Source: Pseudomonas sp. MYb327
Lineage (GTDB): Bacteria; Pseudomonadota; Gammaproteobacteria; Pseudomonadales; Pseudomonadaceae
Assembly (NCBI RefSeq): GCF_040438925.1
Contig: NZ_CP159258.1
Coordinates: forward strand, 4,044,001-4,108,000
Direction of reading: 5' to 3'
DNA length: 64,000 bases
Part shown: positions 20,241 to 32,882 of the stretch, piece by piece
How the letters are laid out: every line of letters starts with the position of its first letter
Numbering within the stretch: the stretch's first letter is position 1
Notes under the pieces: model-generated
What the model was told of the DNA's origin: nothing
Database searches by the model: none
What the model saw: the letters and a program-made list of their open reading frames with translations, nothing else
Translations under genes and position numbers: made by a program

Positions 20241-21500
20241 TCAGATTTCCGAATCCCAGATCACCGTGACCTTGCCCTTGTAGAAGGGACCAGCACCGGG
20301 TTCCAGCATGAACTCCATCTGGCTTGGCGGTACTTCGAAGTGCAAAACACCGGGCGCCCTGTCGACGTAGAAACCCGGCTGCAAATACAGCGCATTGGCC
20401 GCGCCCGCTCGCAGACGCCTGTGCCTGACGGGTTGCCCGCTCATGTCGGTCAGGCCATTGGGCAAGGTGACATAGACCTGCAGTTCCACGGCTCGCTTGG
20501 ACACCCGGTCATCGAGCATGCAATCGTAAACAGTGCCCCCCCGCTCACATTCCATGTGCATCTTGAAACGCGATGACGCCGAGATATTGAAGGTCTGGTC
20601 ACGGAACAACCGTACCGGTGTACGACCCGCCTGCAACCAGCTCTGCCAGCCGCCGGCCGGGACCAACTGGACTTTCTCGCCACCCGGCGGGACATCGACC
20701 TTGAGGGTGTGTTGAACCTCGAGGTTGAAATTCAGGGTCAACACCGGACTGCTCGGCAGCATGACATCGCCGAAATCGAAATCACCGCTGGGGCCGACGG
20801 TATAGGTCAGCGAGCCCGTGTAATGACCGGCCAACATGCCCAATGGATTGGGTGTGACCAGCTCATAGGAGAAGTCCAGAAAGTCGTAACGCATCCACGG
20901 AACATTGAATTTGGCCTGTTTGACACACGCGGCTTCCACCGGTGTCTTCCAGAAAAAACCGTAGTAGTTGGTGTCGTAGTAACCCACACCACTGTAAAGG
21001 CATGGCGCCGGGGTATTCACCCAGCTCGATCCCCAGAGGAGGTTGTGCGCAAGCCTGTAATCATCGGCGCCCCCTACCAATTCCATCACATCTTCCGTCA
21101 CGTACATGGAGCCCACGCCGGTAATCCGCATTTTTACCGTCTCCACCGCTCCGGATTCATGACGAACCGTCAGCTCGCGCCATTGCGCCGGCACCTTGAA
21201 CGTAGCGCCCTGGCGCGGCGACGCATGGTTGGCCGGGATCGCTTGACTGGAATGGAATTGAATCGGCACTTGCAGGCTGAACGTCTGATTTAAGTCGCAT
21301 TGCCCAGGGTATCGCTCGCAGTACCCACTGAGTGGCGTGGTGTTCTTGAATTGGTTGAGGTGCGGATACGCCGAATCGGGCTTGAACAGCGCGGTGATTG
21401 AAACGTCCTGGGCCAAGGCCTGGGGTATCAGCCACCACACCATCAAAAGATTCCATGACCAAAGACGCCTTGTTGAAAACAAAAAACCTGTGACGTTCAT
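20241..21500 (-). CDS. Tip adhesin of CS1-type fimbria, operon B
   Basis: A 419-residue exported protein, probably the fimbrial tip adhesin (CfaE/CooD/CblD type role). A hydrophobic signal segment occupies about residues 11-30 ending QALA. The C-terminal half (about 215-419) is a pilin-like domain with TPNPLGM, GDVMLP and the terminal VTVIWDSEI. It has the same length as the operon A adhesin and aligns to it almost without gaps, but residues about 130-200 are unrelated. The start at 21500 (MNVTG) has GGAG 12 bases upstream. It is the last gene of operon B. Confidence 0.82.
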   Translation of the reverse strand: MNVTGFLFSTRRLWSWNLLMVWWLIPQALAQDVSITALFKPDSAYPHLNQFKNTTPLSGYCERYPGQCDLNQTFSLQVPIQFHSSQAIPANHASPRQGATFKVPAQWRELTVRHESGAVETVKMRITGVGSMYVTEDVMELVGGADDYRLAHNLLWGSSWVNTPAPCLYSGVGYYDTNYYGFFWKTPVEAACVKQAKFNVPWMRYDFLDFSYELVTPNPLGMLAGHYTGSLTYTVGPSGDFDFGDVMLPSSPVLTLNFNLEVQHTLKVDVPPGGEKVQLVPAGGWQSWLQAGRTPVRLFRDQTFNISASSRFKMHMECERGGTVYDCMLDDRVSKRAVELQVYVTLPNGLTDMSGQPVRHRRLRAGAANALYLQPGFYVDRAPGVLHFEVPPSQMEFMLEPGAGPFYKGKVTVIWDSEI

Positions 21501-21596
21501 CTGTATCCATCTCCAAAGAAAACCTCCCTGTTCCTTGGGAGGGTCGATATCCACTCGACATTCAAACGCTGAAAAAACCGGCATCACGAAAAGGGA

Positions 21597-22085
21597 TCAG
21601 GGCGCAGCAGCGCTGAAAATCAACTGAACCGTTCCGTAGTAAGTGCCCGGCTTATAGCCACCGGCCGGCACCTTCGGCTGGATTTCCAGAGCAAAGCGCC
21701 CGCCGGCCCTGGCCTGCGCCGCCGACACAACTTGGCGCGGTTTCGGATCATGGCTCAGCTCCTGACCGTTGAAGCTGACCCGCAAGTAGATGCTCTGGTC
21801 TTCACGCCCGTTGAACAGATAGGGCTCGGCGTCCAGCCGTGCTTCGATCGCACTGGTGTCGTGCTTGACGTCGAAGTTTTTGCGCAGCCCGTCGAGCCTC
21901 GACGTGTTGAGGTTCCACGGCAGGGTCTGTTCGAGATGGATCCAGTTCGTCTCGGCCGGTGTCACGTAAAAGCCCAGGGTCGGAATATCTACCTGCACCT
22001 CGAACGTGCGCTCTTCCCGTGCCGCGAAAACCTGGGCACACGTCATCACGCCCACACATAGGGCAAAGGCCGATTGCTTGATCAT
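21597..22085 (-). CDS. Minor pilin of CS1-type fimbria, operon B
   Basis: A 162-residue exported fimbrial subunit. Residues 1-22 are a signal peptide (MIKQSAFALCVGVMTCAQVFA). The mature protein begins REERTFEVQVDIP and ends GTYYGTVQLIFSAAAP, as in CFA/I-family pilins. It matches the operon A minor pilin in length (162) and in pattern (GYKPG-YYG), and both differ from the major pilins, which lack the GYKPG motif. It probably acts as an adaptor below the tip adhesin; this role is inferred from position just before the adhesin gene. Confidence 0.82.
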   Translation of the reverse strand: MIKQSAFALCVGVMTCAQVFAAREERTFEVQVDIPTLGFYVTPAETNWIHLEQTLPWNLNTSRLDGLRKNFDVKHDTSAIEARLDAEPYLFNGREDQSIYLRVSFNGQELSHDPKPRQVVSAAQARAGGRFALEIQPKVPAGGYKPGTYYGTVQLIFSAAAP

Positions 22086-22148
22086 GTCAGTTACCTGTTG
22101 CGTGAAAAAAAGCGGCGAGTCCTCCAGCGCAACTCGCCTTTGGCGGTG

Positions 22149-22892
22149 TTACTGGCTGGCAATGCGCAACGCCTTTTTGTCGGCGCCTTCGATCAGGTTG
22201 AAGCGGTATTCCCGACCGGGTTTCTTCTCGAACTCGAACGACTTGCCCGCCAGCACGTGATGCTTGGTGGTCGGCTCGCACTCGGTTTCGTTCTTCAGCG
22301 AGCAGTTGCGAAACTCATCGATCACCACCACGGTGTTGCCGTTATTGCGCAGTCGATAAACACCGGCGCTGTCATCGATCACGCTGTCGAAACGGCTGTT
22401 CTTCGGGCGGACAAAAAACACCGTGCCGAAGCCGGTCATGACGTTGACCCCCGCCGACAGGTTCTCCTTGTAGGCGTCGCGCTCTTCGCTGGACACCGCG
22501 AACTCGTCTTCCTTTTCCGGTACCACCGGCACGAAGCGCACACGGAAATAGCGCTCGGTGTCACGGTCTCCCATGAGCAGCAAGCGTGTGCCCTGCATGC
22601 CTTTGGCCGGCACGATCAGACGCGCCGGGCTGGCCATCAAGCCATTCCGGCCGCTGCCATCCGCCTGCGTTGCGACCGGTATTTCGCGGTGGCTGCCATC
22701 GGCGTCGTAGATGATTTCGAGAATGTTGACCTTGACGAATGCGGTGCTATCGCCGCTGTTGTAAACGCGCTTGAGATAGGTGCTCTTGTCGCTGTCCAGA
22801 TAGTCGTACACCGTTCCGACGTTGATCTGCGGACCGGCCTGAACCGCCAGAGATATCCCGCTCATACCCAACAGCAACCACAGACGTTTCAT
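22149..22892 (-). CDS. Periplasmic chaperone of CS1-type fimbria, operon B
   Basis: A 247-residue periplasmic chaperone of the alternative chaperone/usher class, which caps pilin subunits by donor-strand complementation. The signal peptide is MKRLWLLLGMSGISLAVQA. The family segments GPQINVGTVYDYLDSDKSTY, ASPARLIVPAKGMQGTRLL and RVRFVPVVPEKEDEF are visible and repeat nearly unchanged in the operon A chaperone. The start at 22892 is chosen for the signal peptide; the frame runs upstream to 23018 in sequence that also encodes the adhesin relic in another frame. Confidence 0.87.
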   Translation of the reverse strand: MKRLWLLLGMSGISLAVQAGPQINVGTVYDYLDSDKSTYLKRVYNSGDSTAFVKVNILEIIYDADGSHREIPVATQADGSGRNGLMASPARLIVPAKGMQGTRLLLMGDRDTERYFRVRFVPVVPEKEDEFAVSSEERDAYKENLSAGVNVMTGFGTVFFVRPKNSRFDSVIDDSAGVYRLRNNGNTVVVIDEFRNCSLKNETECEPTTKHHVLAGKSFEFEKKPGREYRFNLIEGADKKALRIASQ

Positions 22893-22951
22893 ACCCTTGA
22901 ACCTCATGACATTGAACACAACACAGGCGCTGTCCATCGATAGGCGGCCCA

Positions 22952-23056
22952 TCAGATTTCCGAATCCCAGATCACGGTGACAGAGCCGGTGTACGGGCTC
23001 GCCACATTGGGTAGCCAAGGCCCAATAGATGAAACAAAAGAACGCGAGACGTTCAT
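22952..23056 (-). pseudogene. Internally deleted tip adhesin gene (34-codon relic)
   Basis: The reverse strand reads a complete 34-codon frame starting MNVSRSFVSSIG and ending TGSVTVIWDSEI. The first ~30 bases match the start of the operon B adhesin gene (atgaacgtc...gtt.tttgtttca) and the last ~36 match the 3' end shared by both adhesins, so about 1.1 kb between them has been lost in frame. A strong ribosome binding site GGAGGT lies 9 bases before the ATG. It sits 39 bp after the usher stop, the place where the adhesin gene lies in canonical cfa/coo operons. It is not present at the equivalent site in operon A. Confidence 0.75.
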
Positions 23057-23095
23057 GTAAGCCTGACCTCCAATAACCAAATTCAACGGGGCCAT

Positions 23096-25618
23096 TCAGC
23101 CCGCTGTCTCGGCGTTGTGGGTGGCATCCGCCAGGGTGTCTGGCGAACAGCGCAAATCACCGATCATCAGCACGTTGTTTTCACTGCGGTGTTTGTCGAC
23201 ATCGAGGCGGAACTGGCACAGCAACTGGTCGGCATAACGCACTTGCAGGGTCGGCGAGCCGGCGTTCATTTCCATCGAGAAGAAGCCATCGACCTCGCTG
23301 ACCCCACGGCTGGCGTGGTTGATCACGTGGTGGCCCTTGAGCGGCCGCCCCTGCGGATCGAGCAGACGTCCGAGCACGGTCAGGGTTTTCATCACCCGCA
23401 CCTTGCGATACTCCACACCACCCTTGTTCAGGTGATAGCGGGTACGCGCCGGTTCGATGCTGGCCGCCGGCACGTGATTGCCTTCGAAGTCGAAGCTCAC
23501 CGAGCTGTTTTTGTAGGCTGTGAGCGGAATGAAATTGCGTCCCGGGCGCAAGGCTGCGCTGCCGCCACTGAGATCGTCGGCGCGCAAGGCGATACCGTCG
23601 ATGTCGGACTCGACGTCAACGATCATCCCGGCGCCGCGCCCTTGGTGTTGGCTGGTCAACGCCATGCGTTGCGCGCCGACCACCAGCGTGCTGTCGAGGT
23701 TCACGCCACCGGTGAATTTGTTGTTGAACGACGAACGCTGGATAAAACCGTCGCCATTGATTTCGTCGGTACGAAAGTTCGCCAGGCTCGAAAGGCCGAC
23801 GCCATAGGTGTCGGTGAGCGCGGTCACTGACACGCTTTGCAGCACGTGGTCTTGCAGGTCTTTGCGGAAACCGAGCGAGGCGTTGGTGTCACGACTGCCG
23901 TCACGGGCGGTGCGGCTGCCGATGCTGCCGGAAATCTGCTGGCCGGGGCTACCCAGGGCCATGTTGATGCTCAGGTCGACCCCGCGATTGCGCGCATCAC
24001 CGCTGCTGTAGCTGCCCGGACGGTCGAACAGCGACAGGCGCCAATTGGCATCGCTGCCGAACAACTGGGTCCGTTGGGTCCAGCCGAGGTCGATGCCGAC
24101 ACCTTCGACGTTGCCCTCACTGTGGGATACCCGAGCATTGAGCGAATTCTTGCGGCTGATGCGGTGGTTCAGTGCCAGCGACGAGTTGCTGGTCTGGCCG
24201 GTGAATACATTGCGTTGGCGCACGCGGGTGCCGTCGGGCAGTGTTTCGTAGGTGTTGGTGGTGTCGAGCCAGCTGCGGTTGTGGCTGATCACCAGGCTGC
24301 CAGAGCCATAGTTGTACAGGCCTTGCAGGTCGGCCCCGGTGCCGTGGTCTTCGGTCTGGTAGAGGTTGGCGTAGACACTGGTGCTGTTGCCCAGGGTCCA
24401 GTCGATCGAGCTGCCGTACTGGAGTTTTTCCCGCACCTGGCGTGCCGACAGGCCAAGAATCACCCGCGGGTGCAGCAGATAGTTAATCGAGGCGCCTGCC
24501 GTGGCATCACCACTGCTTTGTTGGTCCCAGTTGCTCAGCAGTTTGCTTTCCTGGCCGGCGAACAGATTGTAGCGCCAGCGATCATCGTGGTTGCGCCAGT
24601 TGCTCGGCTTATAGATCAGTTCCTGAATGGTCGAGGTGATTTGACCGTCCTCGATCAGCCGCACTTCCACTTCGTAAATGCCGCCGGGCAATGGCCGAGT
24701 GTCGAGGGTCTGCAAACCGGCCGGGACCGACTGCGTGTTGATCAACAGGCCATCGCGGTAGATTTCCACCGACGCCTGTCGGTTGGCCGTGACATAAACC
24801 GGGTACACGCTGGGTTTTGGACTGTCGATGGCCAGGCTATCGGAGCTGCCATACATCACGCCCACGGCCGTGTCAGGGCTGGTGCCGAACGAACGAGGCT
24901 GACGCGTCAGGCCTTCGGAGTTGGGCGTGAAGTAGCCCAGGCGGAAAAAACTGCCCTCCAGTTCGCGCTGGGTGAAAAGCTCATGCACGGCGTGGTAGGT
25001 CTTGTCGTCCGGCCCACCCAGACGCGCCAGTTGAATGTTGAAGGTCTGGCTCCAGTTGCCCAGGCTGCCGCTGGCCTCCAGACCGAAACGGCCGCCGAGG
25101 TCTTGATCCTGGCCACCGTTGAGGTTGAGTTGGTTACGTACCATCAGGCCGCTGCTGCCACCTTCGGGTTGGTCGAAATAGCGTTTGGCTTCGCTGTCGC
25201 GCTCGGCATTTTCAGTGACGATCGACAGCAATGAATTTTCCAGGTTGTAGTGAACCGCCAACATTTGTTCCGGGCATTGCCCCGTGCAGGCACCCAGGGC
25301 CACGCCAGGCTTGAGGATGTCAGCCCAGGTCTGGCGTTCTGTGGCACCGAAACGGCTTTCACTGGTGTCGGTGAAGTCGAGCAACGTCACCCGGTCATCG
25401 CGGGACAACACAATCATCGCCTCGCCGAGCGGTTGCTGGTCGAGTTCGACCCGAACCGCCAAAGGAACGTCGAAGAAATGCTCCTCGAACTCTGCCGGCA
25501 AGCCTTTGGCCTGGGCCAGCAAACTTCGCGGTGTATTATCAACGGAGGTGGGCGCCGCAAATGCACTGCTACATAACAGCAACGCAAGCGCAGCCGCGAT
25601 GGGCGTCATCGGGAACAT
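23096..25618 (-). CDS. Outer membrane usher of CS1-type fimbria, operon B
   Basis: An 840-residue outer membrane usher (CfaC/CooC/CblC type) that assembles and secretes fimbrial subunits. The signal peptide spans about residues 1-22 (MFPMTPIAAALALLLCSSAF). It continues with the conserved N-terminal segment LLAQAKGLPAEFEEHFFDVP, a long beta-barrel region, and a C-terminal domain with GRLLDPQGRPLKGHHVINHA. The start at 25618 equals the start of the operon A usher, giving both the same length; the ATG at 25609 is an alternative. By eye it is highly similar to the operon A copy throughout. Confidence 0.9.
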   Translation of the reverse strand: MFPMTPIAAALALLLCSSAFAAPTSVDNTPRSLLAQAKGLPAEFEEHFFDVPLAVRVELDQQPLGEAMIVLSRDDRVTLLDFTDTSESRFGATERQTWADILKPGVALGACTGQCPEQMLAVHYNLENSLLSIVTENAERDSEAKRYFDQPEGGSSGLMVRNQLNLNGGQDQDLGGRFGLEASGSLGNWSQTFNIQLARLGGPDDKTYHAVHELFTQRELEGSFFRLGYFTPNSEGLTRQPRSFGTSPDTAVGVMYGSSDSLAIDSPKPSVYPVYVTANRQASVEIYRDGLLINTQSVPAGLQTLDTRPLPGGIYEVEVRLIEDGQITSTIQELIYKPSNWRNHDDRWRYNLFAGQESKLLSNWDQQSSGDATAGASINYLLHPRVILGLSARQVREKLQYGSSIDWTLGNSTSVYANLYQTEDHGTGADLQGLYNYGSGSLVISHNRSWLDTTNTYETLPDGTRVRQRNVFTGQTSNSSLALNHRISRKNSLNARVSHSEGNVEGVGIDLGWTQRTQLFGSDANWRLSLFDRPGSYSSGDARNRGVDLSINMALGSPGQQISGSIGSRTARDGSRDTNASLGFRKDLQDHVLQSVSVTALTDTYGVGLSSLANFRTDEINGDGFIQRSSFNNKFTGGVNLDSTLVVGAQRMALTSQHQGRGAGMIVDVESDIDGIALRADDLSGGSAALRPGRNFIPLTAYKNSSVSFDFEGNHVPAASIEPARTRYHLNKGGVEYRKVRVMKTLTVLGRLLDPQGRPLKGHHVINHASRGVSEVDGFFSMEMNAGSPTLQVRYADQLLCQFRLDVDKHRSENNVLMIGDLRCSPDTLADATHNAETAG

Positions 25619-25720
25619 GAACGAATACTCTAATAACAAAGAAGTTGAATCACGACCGGCAACTTTTAAGATTGCCGGCCGGTCACGTTACTTATGCAAG
25701 TAAGCGCTTATGACTCTTGA

Positions 25721-26206
25721 TCAAGGAGCAGGAGGAACAGCATCGAACATCATGGTGACCGCACCGGTGTAGTCACCTGGCGCAAAGGTGGTGCCCAGCG
25801 CCTTGATATTCAGTGGGGCGCGATAGTTGACGTTCGATTCGGTTTCGCCGACCACCATTTGCGGCGTCGTAGTGAGGACGACGTTGTTGAGTGCCACTTG
25901 CAGGCCGATCTCGGAAGCGCCACCGATCAGCTTCGGCACACTTTCAAGGCTGGCGTGCACCGAGCCATTGTTGTTGCGTACGTCGAAGAAACCGTTGACC
26001 TCATCCATAGTGCCCTTGCTTGGCACGTAGTCCATTCTCTGATCCTTGTTGACCAGGTCCGGATCGACCGGCACCACGTAGAAACCATTGGTGGGTACAT
26101 GAGCGACAAGGTTGATGGAATGACGGGCTTCGCCCGCGGCAAATACGGCGGAAGAACTCAATGCCAGAACAGCCAGAGGAGCAGCGAACGCGATTTTCTT
26201 GAACAT
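25721..26206 (-). CDS. Major pilin of CS1-type fimbria, operon B
   Basis: A 161-residue structural pilin of the CFA/I (CS1) family. The signal peptide MFKKIAFAAPLAVLALSSSA is nearly identical to that of the operon A pilin, but the mature part (starting about AGEARHSINLVAHVP) has diverged strongly while keeping the pattern DYVPSKGTMDEVNGFFDVRN and the C-terminal PGDYTGAVTMMFDAVPP. No cysteines are seen, as usual for this class. It is first in operon B and has a structured leader (26207-26298). The ATG follows attgaaag, part of a conserved pairing arm. Confidence 0.88.
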   Translation of the reverse strand: MFKKIAFAAPLAVLALSSSAVFAAGEARHSINLVAHVPTNGFYVVPVDPDLVNKDQRMDYVPSKGTMDEVNGFFDVRNNNGSVHASLESVPKLIGGASEIGLQVALNNVVLTTTPQMVVGETESNVNYRAPLNIKALGTTFAPGDYTGAVTMMFDAVPPAP

Positions 26207-26298
26207 CTTTCAATACCTGTCTTTAAAAAGGATTAAGTGCTGAAAGTTCATGAAGGGCAAAACCGTCACGAGCAGCTATTTGCCCAGCTGAACTTTCA
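26207..26298 (-). promoter_or_regulatory. Structured leader of pilin gene B (three-arm)
   Basis: On the mRNA strand, arm 1 TGAAAGTTCA (26298-26289) and arm 2 TGAACTTTCA (26250-26241) are perfect complements, enclosing an inner perfect stem GGGCAAA/TTTGCCC (plus-strand 26254-26260 and 26279-26285). A third arm, TGAAAG (26212-26207), abuts the ATG and can pair with the CTTTCA of arm 2 instead. The pilin A leader has the same layout with different bases. Function is inferred. Confidence 0.5.
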
Positions 26299-26349
26299 AC
26301 GCCGAAAGATGATCAGCCAATTTATCTGGAAAGTAAGCAGGCAAGTTCC

Positions 26350-26365: not shown

Positions 26366-26623
26366 AAGTGCTATCGACACAGAAAGAAAAAACCTGAAAT
26401 ACGATAAAAATCAATGTTTGACTGTAAGAGACAGACTACAAACCGCACATTATAAGCCATGAGAACGAGATACTAACGAAGTAACTTCTGTAAGACCAAG
26501 ACTACATATCCCGCAATCAATGGGCGAAAACAGAACATTAGAGAGTTAACACTAATTTGAACTTGCGGCCGAGGGAAATTACGATTTTTTTTGATTGAGC
26601 ACATCGATGGGAATTGCGGAGCG

Positions 26624-26654
26624 ACCTGAAGCCTTCACTCACGAGGCTTCAGGT
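26624..26654. terminator. Perfect hairpin after fimbrial operon A
   Basis: acctgaagcc and ggcttcaggt form a 10-bp perfect stem with an 11-base loop, 8 bp downstream of the operon A adhesin stop. There is no T run on either side, so it may stabilise the 3' end or slow polymerase rather than act as a classical terminator. Confidence 0.4.
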
Positions 26655-26662
26655 CCATGGCT

Positions 26663-27922
26663 TCAGATCACTTCGGAATCCCAGATCACCGTGACATTGC
26701 CCGACCAGGTTCGCCCGGTGCTCTCGTCCAGCATCTGTTCGACATGCTCCCGGGCCACTTCAAAGTGCAAGGTGCCCGGCTTGCGTTCGACGTAGACACC
26801 CGGTTGAAACAACTCCGTACCAGTGCCATCGAGCAGCAGTGGTCGACGCTGGACCGGTTGGCCTGCAGCATCCGTCAGGCCGCCGGGCAGACTCACGCTG
26901 ATGTCCAATGGCACCTGCTGCGCAGACTCGGTGTCGCGCAACGCACAGGTATTGCCAGCGGAATACTGGCATTCGAGTTGCACCTTGAAGCGCGATGACG
27001 CCGAGACATTGAACGTCTGGTCGCGGAATAACCGCGCTGGTTTGCGTCCCTGATTCAACCAGGCTTGCCAGCCGCCCTGAGGAAGCAGTTCGACTTGATG
27101 GCCGCCCGGCGGGATTTCGACCTTGAGGGAGTGCTGGACATCCAGTTTGAAATTGAGGGTGATGGATGTGTCGTTGGGCAGCATGACATCGCCCATGTCG
27201 AAGTCACCGCCTGGCCCTACGCTGTAGGTCAATGAACCTCGATATTCCCCCGATGACATACCCAGAGGGTTGGGTGTCTTGAGTTCGTAGACGTATTCGA
27301 CTGCGGAGTGCTGGAACCAGGGAATATCCTTGGTGGGCACTACGCCGCAGGCCCCTGCGCCCTCAGGAATAAGCCAAAAGAAAAACGCAAAAGCGACTCC
27401 GGCGACATTAATATCGAGACCGCTACAGGGGGGCGGCGGTGTTGTCCATGGTTTTCGCCAATAGCTGCTACCCGGCGGCGTCCAGGCACTGACTCCCGGT
27501 GGCCTCGCGATGTTCCAAGTACCACCAATTCCGGCGATGCGTACTTCAACGGTCTCTCGCTCACCTGTGCGACTGTGGACAACGTCCACTGGGCGCCAGC
27601 TTGACGGCACACTGAAGGTCGCTCCCTGCCTGGGATCGGTATGCCCGGCCGGAATCGGCTGTATAGAGCGAAATTTCAGGTCGGGCACCCGCAGACTGAA
27701 GATGCCTAATTGCGCACAACGGGCAGCGATATAGTTTGGGCACACCCCGGTCTGTGGCGTTGTGTTGACAAACCGGTTGACCAACTGGTTCGCCGGATCA
27801 GGCACGAACGTCGCGGTTATGTCTTGCTCCACTGCGCCGACAGACGAGACATGCAACCCGGCCAGCAAGCCACCCGCCAACGAGAACGCAGCCATCGTTC
27901 CTGGCGAAAAAAATAACTTCAT
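26663..27922 (-). CDS. Tip adhesin of CS1-type fimbria, operon A
   Basis: A 419-residue exported tip adhesin. Residues about 1-30 form a signal peptide (LAGLHVSSVGA). The N-terminal domain includes a divergent region at about 130-200 with a proline-rich stretch (TTPPPPCSGLD) and an unusual hydrophobic run (AGVAFAFFFWLIP, about 174-186). The C-terminal pilin domain (about 215-419) carries TPNPLGM, GDVMLP, LFRDQTFNVSASSRFK and VTVIWDSEVI. It pairs with the operon B adhesin of identical length. It is last in operon A, followed by a hairpin. Confidence 0.82.
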   Translation of the reverse strand: MKLFFSPGTMAAFSLAGGLLAGLHVSSVGAVEQDITATFVPDPANQLVNRFVNTTPQTGVCPNYIAARCAQLGIFSLRVPDLKFRSIQPIPAGHTDPRQGATFSVPSSWRPVDVVHSRTGERETVEVRIAGIGGTWNIARPPGVSAWTPPGSSYWRKPWTTPPPPCSGLDINVAGVAFAFFFWLIPEGAGACGVVPTKDIPWFQHSAVEYVYELKTPNPLGMSSGEYRGSLTYSVGPGGDFDMGDVMLPNDTSITLNFKLDVQHSLKVEIPPGGHQVELLPQGGWQAWLNQGRKPARLFRDQTFNVSASSRFKVQLECQYSAGNTCALRDTESAQQVPLDISVSLPGGLTDAAGQPVQRRPLLLDGTGTELFQPGVYVERKPGTLHFEVAREHVEQMLDESTGRTWSGNVTVIWDSEVI

Positions 27923-27983
27923 TTTGAATTAACCTGGAATTTCAATAGGGCGAAATAAGCGCCACGCGGTTACCCCTGAGGCA

Positions 27984-28472
27984 TCAAGGAGCGAGGGCCT
28001 CAAAAATCATATGCACACTGCCGTAATAGACTCCGGGCTTATAACCATCATCCGGCCTGACTGCCGCAATCAATAACTCCACGCGCTTTCCGGTTTTCCC
28101 ATCCAGCTCCGAAATGACTTCGGCATTGTCCACTGTGAGTTTTATCCGGTTGAACATGACCTCCAGCGCAATGTTGTCGACGTCCCTGCCGTTACTGATA
28201 TAAGGCTCTGCACTTAATCGCGCGACGATCCCGCCGTTAGCATTTTTCACATCGAAATATTTACGCAGGGAACTCAACTCCTGCGTTGTCAAATTCCAGT
28301 GCAATTCCTGCTCGACTCCCATCCAGCCCGGGTCTACCGGAAGCACATAAAACTCTGCAACAGGGACAGTGACCGACACTTCGAAGGTTTCGCGCTCCAC
28401 CAATGCAAACGCACAAACACTGGCTAGCGTCAGACACACCATCGAGGTGACAGTGATCCATTTTTTGAACAT
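27984..28472 (-). CDS. Minor pilin of CS1-type fimbria, operon A
   Basis: A 162-residue exported fimbrial subunit, with signal peptide MFKKWITVTSMVCLTLASVC and mature start near LVERETFEVSVTVP. It ends PGVYYGSVHMIFEALAP, the same C-terminal pattern as the operon B minor pilin. The ATG at 28472 is preceded by GAAGG at a good distance; the frame opens three codons earlier at a GTG. It lies between the chaperone and adhesin genes and is probably the adaptor between shaft and tip. Confidence 0.82.
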   Translation of the reverse strand: MFKKWITVTSMVCLTLASVCAFALVERETFEVSVTVPVAEFYVLPVDPGWMGVEQELHWNLTTQELSSLRKYFDVKNANGGIVARLSAEPYISNGRDVDNIALEVMFNRIKLTVDNAEVISELDGKTGKRVELLIAAVRPDDGYKPGVYYGSVHMIFEALAP

Positions 28473-28567
28473 GACCTTCACCCGCAGCTAACACTTCAAT
28501 GTTGTAAAAAACTGGATTAATTGAACTGGTTACTTCAAGGAAACTTTATCCGCTCACCTGGGCGGCC

Positions 28568-29308
28568 TTATCCCTTGACGTCCAGATTTTGGTTTTTACT
28601 GCCTTCGACCATCGTAAAACGGTAGTGACGACCGGCCTGCTTTTCGAACTGGAAACTTCGACCCGGCAGAATGTGATGTTTGCTGGGTGGCTGGCACTCC
28701 AGTTCGTTCTTTATCGAGCAGTCTTTGAATTCCTCGATCACCACCACGCTATTGCCGTTGTTGCGGATCCGGTACTGCCCTGCATCATTCTCGATCACGC
28801 TGTCAAAGCGGGTTTCTTTTGGACGGACGAAGAACACCGTGCCATAACCGGCAAGTACGTTAACCCCGGCCGACAGGTTTTTTTTATAGTCTTCTTTCTC
28901 TTGTGCCGACACGGCGAATTCATCTTCTTTTTCCGGTACTACCGGGATATAACGCACGCGGAAGTAACGTTCTTTCTCACGCTCGCCGACGTACAGCAAA
29001 CGCGAGCCCTGCATGCCGTCGGCCGGCACGATCAATCGCGCCGGGCTGGCCATCAAGCCGTCACGCGAAGTGCCGTCGGCCTGGTTGACCAAGGGTATTT
29101 CCCGGGCTTTGCCATCTGCGTCATAAATAATTTCAAGAATATTGATCTTGACGAAAGCTGTACTGTCACCACCGTTGAACACGCGTTTCAGATACGAACT
29201 TTTGTCACCATCGAGATAGTCGTAGACTACCCCGACATTAATTTGCGGAGCCGCTAGGGCGGCGTGAGAAAACATGGAAAAACCAAACAATGCCAACAGG
29301 CGTTTCAT
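28568..29308 (-). CDS. Periplasmic chaperone of CS1-type fimbria, operon A
   Basis: A 246-residue periplasmic chaperone with signal peptide MKRLLALFGFSMFSHAALA. It shares long blocks with the operon B chaperone, such as APQINVGVVYDYLDGDKSSY, LMASPARLIVPADGMQGSRL and GTVFFVRPKETRFDSVI. The two cysteines near the end (CSIKNELEC) are conserved in both copies and could form a disulfide. It follows the usher by 56 bp, with no adhesin relic in the gap, unlike operon B. Confidence 0.87.
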   Translation of the reverse strand: MKRLLALFGFSMFSHAALAAPQINVGVVYDYLDGDKSSYLKRVFNGGDSTAFVKINILEIIYDADGKAREIPLVNQADGTSRDGLMASPARLIVPADGMQGSRLLYVGEREKERYFRVRYIPVVPEKEDEFAVSAQEKEDYKKNLSAGVNVLAGYGTVFFVRPKETRFDSVIENDAGQYRIRNNGNSVVVIEEFKDCSIKNELECQPPSKHHILPGRSFQFEKQAGRHYRFTMVEGSKNQNLDVKG

Positions 29309-29364
29309 GACTTGCTACCTCAATATTAAATTCAGCGAAACCTGACTATCGGTGTCCAGTTCAT

Positions 29365-31887
29365 TCAACCAGCCTTATAAAAATCACGATTTGCGTCGGC
29401 TAACGTCTCCGGCGTACAGCGCAACTCACCAATCATCAGCACATCGTTTTCACTACGCGCGTTGTTCGGGTCCAGACGGAACTGGCAAAGCAACTGATTA
29501 CCGAAACGCACTTCCAGCGTGGGTGAACCGGCATTCATTTCCATGGAGAAAAAGCCGTCGACTTCACTCACGCCACGACTGGCGTGATTGATGATGTGAT
29601 GGCCCTTGAGCGGCTTGCCTTGGGGGTCGACAAGACGGCCGAGTACGGTGACGGTTTTGCTGATGGTGATCTTGCGGTACTCCACGCCGCCCTTGTTCAG
29701 GTGATAGCTGGAGCGTGGCGGCTGGATGCTCGCGGCAGGCACGTGATTGCCTTCGAAATCGAAGCTCACCGAGCTGCTTTTGTAAGCCGTAAGGGGTACA
29801 AAGTTGCGCCCTGGCCGCAGCACCGCGCTGCCGCCGCTCAAGTCGTCGGCGCGCAAGGCAATGCCGTCGAGGTCCGACTCCACGTCGATGATCATGCCCG
29901 CGCCCTCACGGTGGGCCTGGCTGGTGATGACCATTTTCCGCGCACCGACCGCGAACGTGCTGTCCAGATTGAGGCCGCCTGTGAGGTCATTGTTGTAGGA
30001 AGAACGCTGGATAAAGCCGTCACCGTTGACCAGGTCCGATTGCATCATCGCCATGGCGGACATGCCCACGCCATAAGTGTCGGTGGTCGCCGTTGCCGAG
30101 ACACTTTGCAGCACGTGATTCTGGAGTTCTTTGCGATAGGTGATCGACGCGTTGTTGTCACGCTCACCGTCACGGGCCGTACGGGTACCGATACTGCCGG
30201 ACAGTTGTCCCCCAGGTCCGCCCAACTCAATGTTGAGGCTCAAATCGACCCCGCGATTACGGTGGTCTCCGGAACTGAAACTGCCCGGACGATCAAACAG
30301 GGAGAGCCGCCAGTTGGCGTCGCTGCCAAACAGCTCGCTGCGCTGGGTCCACCCCAGATCCACGCCGGTGCCTTCGGTATTGCCCTGGCTATGTGATACC
30401 CGGGCGCTGACGGAGTTTTTTTGGCTCAAGCGGTGGTTGAGCGATAAAGAGGACTGGCTGGCCTGGCCGACAAACACGTTGCGCTGTCGCACTCGCGTGC
30501 CATCGGGCAGGGTGTCGTAGAGGCGGGTCGTGTCGAGCCAGCTACGGTTATGGCTGGCGACGACGCTGCCCTTGCCGTAAGAGTACAAACCTTGCACATC
30601 AAGGCCCGTGCCGTAGTTCTCAGTCTGATAGACGTTGGCAAACAAGCTGGCATTATCGACGACCGCCCAGTCGACCGAAGAGCCGAATTGCAATGTATCG
30701 CGCACCTGCCGACTACTCATGCCGAGGATCACCCGCGGGTGCAACAAGAAGTTGAGCGCCGCGCCGGCGGTCAAATCGCCGTCGTCCTGCTCTTCCCAGT
30801 TGCTCAGCAGTTTTGATTCACGGCCGGCAAACAAACTGTAGCGCCAGCGTTCGTCGTGATGGCGCCAGTTGTTCGGTTTGTAGACCAGTTCCTGAGTGCT
30901 GGAGGTGATTTTTCCGTCTTCAATCAGTCGCACTTCCACTTCATAAATCCCCCCGGGCAGCGATCGGGTGTCGAGCGTCTGCAATCCAGCGGGCACGGCT
31001 TGCGAGTTGATCAGCAAACCGTTGCGGTAGATTTCCACGGAGCCCTGGCGATTGGCCGTGACGTAAATGGGATAAACCGCCGGTTTGGGGTTGTTGATGA
31101 CCAGACTGTCGGAACTGCCATACATGACACCTAATGAGGTGTCGGGACCTGCGCCGAACGAGCGTGGTTGACGGGTCAAGCCTTCAGTGGCGGGCGTGAA
31201 GTATCCGAGGCGCAGAAAACTGCCTTCCAGTTCACGTTGGGTGTAAAGACTGTGCACGGCGTGGTAAAGCGAGTGGTCGACTCCCCCCGTGCGGGACAAT
31301 TGCACGTTGGCGGTCTGGGTCCAATTGCCCAGGCTGCTGCTGGCCTCCAGGCCGTATCGCCCGCCCAGGTCCTGGTTCTGACCGCCATTGAGGTTCAATT
31401 GATTGCGCACGATCAGGCCGCTACTACCGCCGTCGGGCAACTGGTAATAACGCTGCAGCTGATCGTCGTGCTCGGCATTTTCCGTAAGGATCGAGACCAT
31501 CGAATTTTCCAGGCTGTAATGCACAGCCAGCAATTGTTCCGGGCACTGGCCCTGACAACTGCCGAGTAATACGCCTTGCTTGAGGTAATTCGACCAGATG
31601 TCCCGTTGATCGGGTTTAATCCGGCTGTCGCGGACGTCAGTAAAATCCATAAGGGTGATGCGATCATCGCGGCTCAGCACGACCATCGCCTCCCCGACAA
31701 ACTGTTGATCAAGTTCCACTCGCACCGCCAACGGCACATCAAAAAAGTGCTCTTCGAACTCGGCCGGCAATCCTTTGGCCTGTGCCAGCAAACTACGAGG
31801 TGAATGGCCATTGTCCGTTGGCGCCGCCAAAGCGCTTGCACTTAAAAAAAAAGCGAGCGCTGCCGCGATGGGAGTCATCGGGAACAT
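29365..31887 (-). CDS. Outer membrane usher of CS1-type fimbria, operon A
   Basis: An 840-residue outer membrane usher of the CfaC/CooC type. The signal peptide is MFPMTPIAAALAFFLSASAL. The mature N-terminal block LLAQAKGLPAEFEEHFFDVP is identical to that of the operon B usher, and long identical blocks follow through the barrel to the C-terminal LVDPQGKPLKGHHIINHASR. The start at 31887 was chosen for the signal peptide; the frame opens at 31968 without family similarity. It lies about 100 bp after the major pilin stop, typical of a pilin-usher gap with partial termination. Confidence 0.9.
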   Translation of the reverse strand: MFPMTPIAAALAFFLSASALAAPTDNGHSPRSLLAQAKGLPAEFEEHFFDVPLAVRVELDQQFVGEAMVVLSRDDRITLMDFTDVRDSRIKPDQRDIWSNYLKQGVLLGSCQGQCPEQLLAVHYSLENSMVSILTENAEHDDQLQRYYQLPDGGSSGLIVRNQLNLNGGQNQDLGGRYGLEASSSLGNWTQTANVQLSRTGGVDHSLYHAVHSLYTQRELEGSFLRLGYFTPATEGLTRQPRSFGAGPDTSLGVMYGSSDSLVINNPKPAVYPIYVTANRQGSVEIYRNGLLINSQAVPAGLQTLDTRSLPGGIYEVEVRLIEDGKITSSTQELVYKPNNWRHHDERWRYSLFAGRESKLLSNWEEQDDGDLTAGAALNFLLHPRVILGMSSRQVRDTLQFGSSVDWAVVDNASLFANVYQTENYGTGLDVQGLYSYGKGSVVASHNRSWLDTTRLYDTLPDGTRVRQRNVFVGQASQSSLSLNHRLSQKNSVSARVSHSQGNTEGTGVDLGWTQRSELFGSDANWRLSLFDRPGSFSSGDHRNRGVDLSLNIELGGPGGQLSGSIGTRTARDGERDNNASITYRKELQNHVLQSVSATATTDTYGVGMSAMAMMQSDLVNGDGFIQRSSYNNDLTGGLNLDSTFAVGARKMVITSQAHREGAGMIIDVESDLDGIALRADDLSGGSAVLRPGRNFVPLTAYKSSSVSFDFEGNHVPAASIQPPRSSYHLNKGGVEYRKITISKTVTVLGRLVDPQGKPLKGHHIINHASRGVSEVDGFFSMEMNAGSPTLEVRFGNQLLCQFRLDPNNARSENDVLMIGELRCTPETLADANRDFYKAG

Positions 31888-31992
31888 GAAGTCATTACTC
31901 TGGATATAAAGATAAAAACTCGATCGACGAACATTAAATGCCCGCCGACCGATAACACCATCGAACAATCGATGTTTTTAGTTCACAGCGAG

Positions 31993-32484
31993 TTAAGGAC
32001 CAACTTTCGGGATCGCATCAAACACGACGACCGGAGTTGCGGTGTAAACACCGTTCTTACCCGCGGCTGGTGTGGCTGGAACAATCGAAAGTTCGGCCTT
32101 GATGCCGGGCTTCGCTGCGGCTTCAGTCACAACTTCCTTGGAAACTGCCGTCAGTGCTATACCGTTGAAGGTGTAGGTCAGAGCAATCTCATCAGCACCA
32201 TTGAACAAAGGCTGCGGACCGCCTTCAACATAGGCGCCTACTGCACCGTCAGTGTGCTTCACATAGTAATCCGCACGCAGCGAACTCAGTGTGCCAGACG
32301 GGATGTCGTAATCCATTGTTTCGGCTTTACCGAAGTTCGGATCAACCGGTTGCGCGTGGAAAACGCTGCTTGGGACTTTGGCGGTGATGTTGATGGTGCT
32401 GCGAGACTCTTCGACGGCAAATGCGAAAGAAGAGCTCAATGCCAGAATGGCTAATGGAGCGGAAAAGGCGATTTTCTTGAACAT
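31993..32484 (-). CDS. Major pilin of CS1-type fimbria, operon A
   Basis: A 163-residue structural pilin of the CFA/I (CS1) family. The signal peptide MFKKIAFSAPLAILALSSSF matches pilin B closely, while the mature part (about VEESRSTINITAKVP onward) is only distantly similar. It retains the pattern DYDIPSGTLSSLRADYYVKH and ends VYTATPVVVFDAIPKVGP. It is the first gene of operon A and has a leader with three complementary arms. An AAAGG ribosome binding site lies about 9 bases before the ATG. Confidence 0.88.
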   Translation of the reverse strand: MFKKIAFSAPLAILALSSSFAFAVEESRSTINITAKVPSSVFHAQPVDPNFGKAETMDYDIPSGTLSSLRADYYVKHTDGAVGAYVEGGPQPLFNGADEIALTYTFNGIALTAVSKEVVTEAAAKPGIKAELSIVPATPAAGKNGVYTATPVVVFDAIPKVGP

Positions 32485-32599
32485 ACTTTCAGACCTTTCT
32501 TAGTAAGTGACAGGCAATTGAAAGTCCAACCAAACCATCAAGCCTTATTGACCGCATAGAAATAAGGATCGTGATTGATAACTTGGCCAGACTTTCAAT
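32485..32599 (-). promoter_or_regulatory. Structured leader of pilin gene A (three-arm)
   Basis: On the mRNA strand, arm 1 ATTGAAAGTC (32599-32590) and arm 2 GACTTTCAAT (32526-32517) are perfect 10-base complements; an inner perfect stem (CCTTATT/AATAAGG, plus-strand 32543-32549 and 32561-32567) lies between. A third arm TGAAAGT (32491-32485) sits between the AAAGG ribosome site and the ATG and can pair with ACTTTCA of arm 2. The alternatives arm 1:arm 2 and arm 2:arm 3 exclude each other. Function is inferred. Confidence 0.5.
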
Positions 32600-32882
32600 G
32601 GCGCAGATCCTCTAGAAAATCATAAGAAAAGTATGTAGGAATACTCTGAGTACTTAGTAGGTAAAACAAACCAATCCGTAACGATTAATTTATTGATTGA
32701 AAAGTCCTACTCATGTGTTTTCAAACACTACAGACACAAGTGCAATATTTTTTTACTTCTTAATTTCTCGCCCTACGCCGGACATTTTTTGTGTGTGGCC
32801 CCGTCACCGTTGGTCGACGTCGCTTGCATTCTCCATAAGATATATCTTAAGTTGTATCTAAATAAGACGAGAGAGCACAGAA
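32600..32882. other. AT-rich divergent region between pilin A and nfeR-like gene
   Basis: About 280 AT-rich bases that must contain the promoters of fimbrial operon A (leftward) and of the PadR-type regulator (rightward). I see no gene and no strong sigma-70 hexamer pair for the fimbrial side. A perfect palindrome near the right end is listed separately. Confidence 0.5.
32836..32849. promoter_or_regulatory. Palindromic operator candidate for the NfeR-like regulator
   Basis: TAAGATATATCTTA is a perfect 14-bp palindrome, 33 bp before the start of the PadR-type regulator gene, downstream of a -35-like TTGCAT (32824-32829). Autorepression by PadR-family proteins through such AT-rich dyads is common, so it is the likely binding site. 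Confidence 0.5.

Follow-up and report, generated by a model that had tools for sequence, protein, structure and literature searches.

The 5′ leaders of CS1-type major pilin mRNAs in Pseudomonas were found to carry a conserved, strand-specific RNA element, of which a long hairpin, P3, is the long arm. The element is kept by many Pseudomonas species and has apparently not been described until now. It has a defined place and strand in these leaders, shows compensatory change and, across the genomes searched, was found in no other place than CS1 pilin leaders. It is built of an outer helix (P1), a small hairpin (P2b) whose loop is GAUCAU-like, and the long hairpin P3, after which comes the ribosome site. 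Two copies lie in the 64,000-nucleotide stretch of Pseudomonas sp. MYb327 DNA that was analyzed (the window), as seen in Table 1. With moderate confidence, we consider the element to be a 5′ stabilizing leader, like those of papA and ompA in its action, that sets the excess of pilin over usher and needs no second state.

Table 1. Coordinates of the pilin leader elements and neighboring features in the window
Feature	Position	Strand	Basis
-10-like TACTTT in conserved block CCTACATACTTT; probable transcription start near 32621	32628..32633	-	Block conservation
Whole leader element of pilA, R2 match	32487..32639	-	36.4 bits, E 2.8e-6 in 64 kb; E 1.2e-8 in 261 nt
Predicted P1 5′ strand	32601..32621	-	Covariance model match and P1 test
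P3 5′ strand (first 10 nt, arm 1)	32575..32599	-	Read and folded
P3 apical stem (CCTTATT/AATAAGG)	32543..32567	-	Read and folded
P3 3′ strand (last 10 nt, middle arm)	32517..32541	-	Read and folded
Predicted P1 3′ strand, overlying ribosome site AAAGG 32498-32494	32492..32515	-	Reading and P1 test
Third arm TGAAAGT; outside the conserved element	32485..32491	-	Swap, energy and complementarity tests
pilA, CS1-type major pilin, 163 aa, first gene of cluster	31993..32484	-	ORF; Pfam PF04449 E 4e-6
Hairpin between pilA and usher, 15 pairs, then T5	31920..31952	-	Terminator scan, folding; conserved
Usher, CooC-like; probable start ATG at 31887 (listed ORF start 31968)	29365..31887	-	ORF and Pfam
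Leader element of second CS1 cluster, before pilin 25721-26206	26209..26341	-	R1 E 4e-10, untrained; R2 training member
Hairpin after second-cluster major pilin	25653..25681	-	25621-25720 z -3.61; z -1.9 with 25 shuffles

In its cluster, pilA is followed by the usher, a 246-aa protein, a second CS1 pilin and a 419-aa protein. The 246-aa protein lies at the chaperone's place and the 419-aa protein at the adhesin's place; neither has a Pfam match, and their probable identities as chaperone and adhesin come from gene order. A second CS1 cluster lies directly downstream, and the leader of its first pilin has the same kind of hairpin. The two clusters (20241-26206 and 26663-32484) stand in tandem with the same gene order, and their major pilins have diverged to 42% identity.

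In the pilA leader, read on the minus strand, positions 32599-32575 pair with 32541-32517 in 25 consecutive pairs (19 Watson-Crick, 6 G-U and no mismatch). A sequence-only reading of this DNA had picked out an arm 1, ATTGAAAGTC (32599-32590), a middle arm or arm 2, GACTTTCAAT (32526-32517), a third arm before the pilA ATG (32484-32482), and an inner stem (CCTTATT 32567-32561 with AATAAGG 32549-32543). Direct reading placed all of these where that reading had put them, and the complementarity between arm 1 and the middle arm, given as 10 pairs, proved longer. Covariation among relatives had been named as the check on this hairpin, and compensatory changes were found. The arm 1/arm 2 hairpin is a genuine conserved RNA structure of the pilin leader. 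Folding of the 156-nt leader stretch gave a z of -2.27, with 5 of 200 shuffles equally good, and folding of 32500-32610 gave -4.24 on the sense strand vs. -1.77 on the antisense strand (200 shuffles each).

Conservation was examined in 118 leaders, which comprised 7 named Pseudomonas records, 29 search loci, 80 loci taken by coordinates and the 2 of the window. A search of the genus gave a match in at least 206 of 398 Pseudomonas genomes, and the leaders compared are a selection among the matches listed; further matches in genomes already used (mostly second pilins) and weaker matches were left out. In some cases a named and an unnamed record stood for the same genome; removal of near-identical leaders brought the number to 104. 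Outside the genus, CS1 pilins were found in one other genome among the 369 of the class sample, which was too few for testing. At -120 to -20, the 104 leaders folded with a mean z of -2.55 on the sense strand (61% below -2) vs. -1.31 on the antisense strand (26% below -2). The next two 100-nt segments upstream had mean sense z values of -0.22 and -0.07, and the third had -0.6 on both strands. The longest-hairpin count was barely above that of shuffles, with at least 20 pairs in 51% vs. 42%.

Pairing was then compared between each leader's own strands and strands swapped among the leaders of its group. Fixed windows were used for this rather than windows chosen by folding, since arms taken from each leader's own fold gave a biased test. 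For P3, own strands paired better than swapped strands in groups 18 (n = 31) and 15 (n = 14), with 0 of 2000 permutations as good in each. The six smaller groups (n = 4-11) did not reach significance, and in groups 10, 14 and 3 own strands were no better than swapped ones. Two control windows gave nothing beyond single values of 71/2000 and 74/2000. P1 was supported in group 18, the largest (11/2000), and more weakly in groups 2, 10 and 3 (35, 50 and 92 of 2000); in the other four of the 8 groups it was unsupported (three not significant, one with the sign reversed), and the controls were negative. No pairing signal was seen between the leader hairpin and the first 45 nt of the coding sequence.

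Compensatory change was counted on a MAFFT alignment of 17 leaders that was not fitted to structure. It held 18 compensatory cells compared with 7.4 expected, a number reached in 0 of 500 shuffles. Against a null of substitutions placed on a tree, the values were 0/500 for paired cells, 4/500 for compensatory cells and 0/500 for the G statistic. Alignment A4, in which 24 of 28 pairs had two-sided changes (0/500 shuffles), was model-fitted and carries supporting weight only. The pair count on alignment A2 showed the register but no covariation (377 of 500 shuffles were as high) because the lower stem hardly varies. P2b showed no two-sided compensatory change and varied on one side only, in a model-fitted alignment.

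The leaders of group 15 fold as a three-way junction of P1, a 4-bp P2b with GAUCAU in its loop, and P3. A covariance model, R1, was built from 17 leaders of this type and run on 98 sources, one of which holds a training leader. At E <= 1 it gave 51 matches, each of them within a pilin leader (51/51); one, in L097, ends at -67. Across 149 genomes, R1 gave 25 matches in 25 genomes, every one directly before a CS1 pilin. For 24 of the 25, a protein starts within 5 nt after the match and matches a window major pilin at 46-91% identity (24/24); the 25th is the window's own second-cluster pilin. In the window's genome, the second-cluster leader was the single R1 match at E <= 1. This leader is a closer copy of the element; R1 is too narrow to reach the pilA leader in that genome and gave it no more than 12 bits (E of 0.0063 over 261 nt). 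The sister leader L012 was likewise not recovered as a whole by R1.

A wider model, R2, was trained on the 51 R1 matches with the pilA leader of the window left out. Over the 64 kb, the pilA leader was its only match besides the second-cluster leader, a member of the training set, and L012 was found with an E of 2.2e-7. On 44 untrained sources, R2 found 36 leaders at E <= 1 and 28 at E <= 0.01, missed 8 at E <= 1, and gave two extra matches on the wrong strand. The covariance model annotates CS1 pilin leaders directly. Rfam 15 had no family match at the gathering score in the window and 18 relatives. Among the best-listed matches in the open-licence PMC literature, we found no paper on CS1 pilin leader structure, and the excerpt of a paper on the P. 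fragi fim operon (PMC13188923) contained no mention of untranslated or hairpin.

A second structure lies on the other side of pilA. Downstream DNA was long enough for folding in 38 loci (34 distinct sequences), and in each of them the first 100 nt after pilA held a long hairpin, with a mean z of -3.67 sense and -1.82 antisense and a z below -2 in 34 of the 38 (25 shuffles each). In the window, this hairpin is followed by a T run. The T run is missing in many loci, for example in groups 14 and 15, so the hairpin is not a terminator throughout; a terminator-like score was found after pilA in 34% vs. 26% of shuffles. The leaders and the pilA-usher gaps of both window clusters had z values of -4.24, -3.84, -4.87 and -3.61; five further junctions of these clusters were tested and proved unstructured (z -0.99 to 0.64). 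Since the leader and post-pilA hairpins are both conserved, the message of the major pilin is flanked by structure on both sides. Between the clusters, 26563-26662 had a z of about -2.7 on both strands, as expected of a terminator.

Chaperone-usher pilus operons need rod subunit in large excess over usher. If the element is a stabilizing leader, transcription would begin close to 32621, where P1 has its foot, and this helix would lock in the mRNA's 5′ end and so slow decay from that end. The post-pilA hairpin would shield the other side and leave a long-lived pilA segment. With the pilin segment protected on both sides, much more pilin than usher could be made from one operon. The sequence-only reading had also proposed control of the amount of pilin relative to usher; the placement of the leader hairpin, at the first gene only and in both clusters, fits this part of its claim, whereas the switch by which it was to work is unsupported. 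A conserved RNA that has no Rfam entry before the major pilin, together with a hairpin after it, offers a testable account of pilin excess through segmental mRNA stability. The start site proposed here takes the conserved block CCTACATACTTT, just upstream of P1, as a probable -10 region; a strict pattern for the -10-like block fits 47 of the 104 leaders, and a sigma-70 scan found no promoter-like site for the pilA leader.

In the stabilizing 5′ UTR of ompA, the shape of the 5′ helices counts more than their sequence. The pilin leaders likewise conserve structure rather than sequence, on the transcript strand, but differ from ompA in their junction plan and partly conserved loop letters. The cable pilin gene cblA of Burkholderia cenocepacia encodes another CS1-related pilin that is reportedly under post-transcriptional control. 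In E. coli, a 5′ stem-loop is important for the longevity of papA mRNA, according to the title of a study (Bricker and Belasco 1999) cited in PMC3997798. Both papA and pilA encode the major pilin of a chaperone-usher operon and have a 5′ stem-loop. However, papA belongs to another pilus family and organism, and the element here is larger, has several helices and is genus-wide. An effect on longevity would be a likeness of action and not of membership.

A plain stabilizer does not explain why the letters of the P3 5′ strand and the GAUCAU-like loop are kept, and it does not need P1 to lie over the ribosome site in the pilA leader. Another possible explanation, which we regard as somewhat unlikely, is that the leader senses a signal: the GAUCAU-like loop junction and the GGCGUUGAAAGU strand would bind a protein, small RNA or small molecule and thereby alter pilA translation or decay. 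Exact GATCAT is found in 52 of the 104 leaders and GA[TA]NAT in 75, the letters of the P3 5′ strand are kept in many leaders while the distal stem changes freely, and the junction plan was fitted to 51 leaders. We entertain a sensing role because many leaders keep these letters to a degree that a stabilizer would not require and because the irregular predicted P1 (32621-32601 with 32515-32492) covers the ribosome site here. In the pilA leader of the window, however, P2b is not formed and the loop is degenerate in the R2 alignment, and the one-sided variation of P2b also speaks against sensing. A tiny reading frame in the P2b loop occurs in some leaders only, is broken in others, and was rejected by eye.

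Access to the ribosome site bears on sensing in both directions. ACAGG precedes the start codon in 92 of the 104 leaders, with AAAGG in its stead in the pilA leader of the window. In transcripts from -165, the ribosome site was less open than in shuffles (median 0.08 vs. 0.28; 101 of 104 leaders, three lacking AGG being dropped). In transcripts from -115, it was nearly as open as in shuffles (0.28 vs. 0.31), and the start codon was slightly more open. Masking of the ribosome site rises above chance only when -165 to -115 is part of the transcript. Family-wide, it depends on the block CCTGCTTAC; this block may belong to the promoter and not to the RNA, and has no clear covariation above control windows. 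Pairing of this block and its variants with ACAGGTA, as an anti-ribosome-site sequence, was considered and is unproven, as the block may be the -10 region. The duplex had a mean z of -0.79 in 115 leaders (3 of the 118 had no AGG and were dropped); among the larger groups, it stood out chiefly in 10 and 12. Own strands vs. swapped strands gave 35/2000 at -160 to -120 and 457/2000 at -175 to -105, compared with 132/2000 in a control window.

An extended form of this idea would place the element in a new class of cis-regulatory RNAs, built as a three-way junction, through which a sensed signal determines how much major pilin Pseudomonas makes. P3 would be a fast-changing structural arm, and in some lineages binding of arm 1, or its cleavage (e.g., by RNase III on the 25-bp stem), would be followed by a third-arm pairing that closes the start site. 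We regard this picture as doubtful.

The sequence-only reading had described a two-state switch with two possible partners for arm 2: pairing with arm 1 leaves the start site free (on), and pairing with the third arm hides it (off). Exclusive hairpins in a structured leader near the ribosome site are the mark of translational riboswitches and thermometers. CS1 pilin leaders are likewise structured beside the ribosome site, but a conserved second state was looked for in them and not found. In the pilA leader of the window, all three arms exist at their places and the middle and third arms can form 7 bp, yet forcing this pairing costs 7.9 kcal/mol and its pair probability is at most 1.4e-5; the third arm is also transcribed after both others. 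Complementarity of at least 7 bases between the two regions was found in 4 of the 104 leaders (3.8%; L014, the pilA leader of the window, L057 and L012) compared with 2.6% of swapped combinations. Own third arms gave no signal over swapped ones in 7 of 8 groups, and group 8 (n = 5) reached 30/2000. The second pairing is not conserved among relatives and, in the pilA leader, is far from the first in energy; the switch is very improbable.

Some single leaders point the other way. In L012, the one close relative found, two positions have changed in step in arms 2 and 3 (from ACTTTCA/TGAAAGT into ATTTTTA/TAAAAAT), which keeps the two arms complementary; no more close relatives of L012 and the window leader were found in 331 genomes, a sample evidently without L012's own genome. 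When arm 1 is cut away, arm 2 pairs with arm 3 at a probability of 0.8-1.0 per pair in the pilA leader and of 0.3 in L012. In the four leaders tested, the energy penalty of the alternative fold was +7.9 kcal/mol in the pilA leader, +7.6 in the second-cluster leader, +5.6 in L012 and 0.0 in L014, where the equal energy of both pairings agrees with a switch. Third-arm pairing may be a lineage-specific addition in single lineages, outside the element proper. In L014 (1365-1510), the 3′ strand of the hairpin is complementary over 10 bp to GTACTGAAAG at the ribosome site, with no difference in energy between the two folds. On this folding, L014 would be the best candidate for a genuine start-site switch.

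That the leader hairpin is a transcription attenuator or terminator is hardly credible: the hairpin is strong, but no T run follows P3, and the terminator scan had no site in the leader. A reading of the inverted repeat as DNA rather than RNA, either an operator or a decaying mobile palindrome, is equally hard to believe. Long inverted repeats are often operators and conserved DNA sites do lie further upstream, but the 25-bp stem has six mismatches at the DNA level, every one of them a G-U pair in the transcript, an indication of an RNA feature. Also, the sense z is far below the antisense z, and at E <= 1 R1, too narrow for the pilA leader, matched the second pilin leader alone in the window's genome. 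The stems held 331 G-U pairs vs. 7 single A.C mismatches, which agrees with RNA, although this count is biased since folding accepts G-U pairs.

The upstream DNA sites have the form TGTAGT-N5-TCTTACAG. Two copies 66 bp apart lie in the window at 26422-26506, at -234 and -300 from the second-cluster pilin start, and they look like putative activator sites of the CS1 pilus genes. At least one site of this type was found in 46 of the 104 leaders and two in 7. A further conserved CTAC lies at about -160 in pilin leaders. In groups 10 and 12 (e.g., L067, L070 and L080), the block AAAGTTTTGGCAAAATGCCATCTTTTTC, with variants, is strongly conserved at about -205 to -180, upstream of the pilin promoter region.
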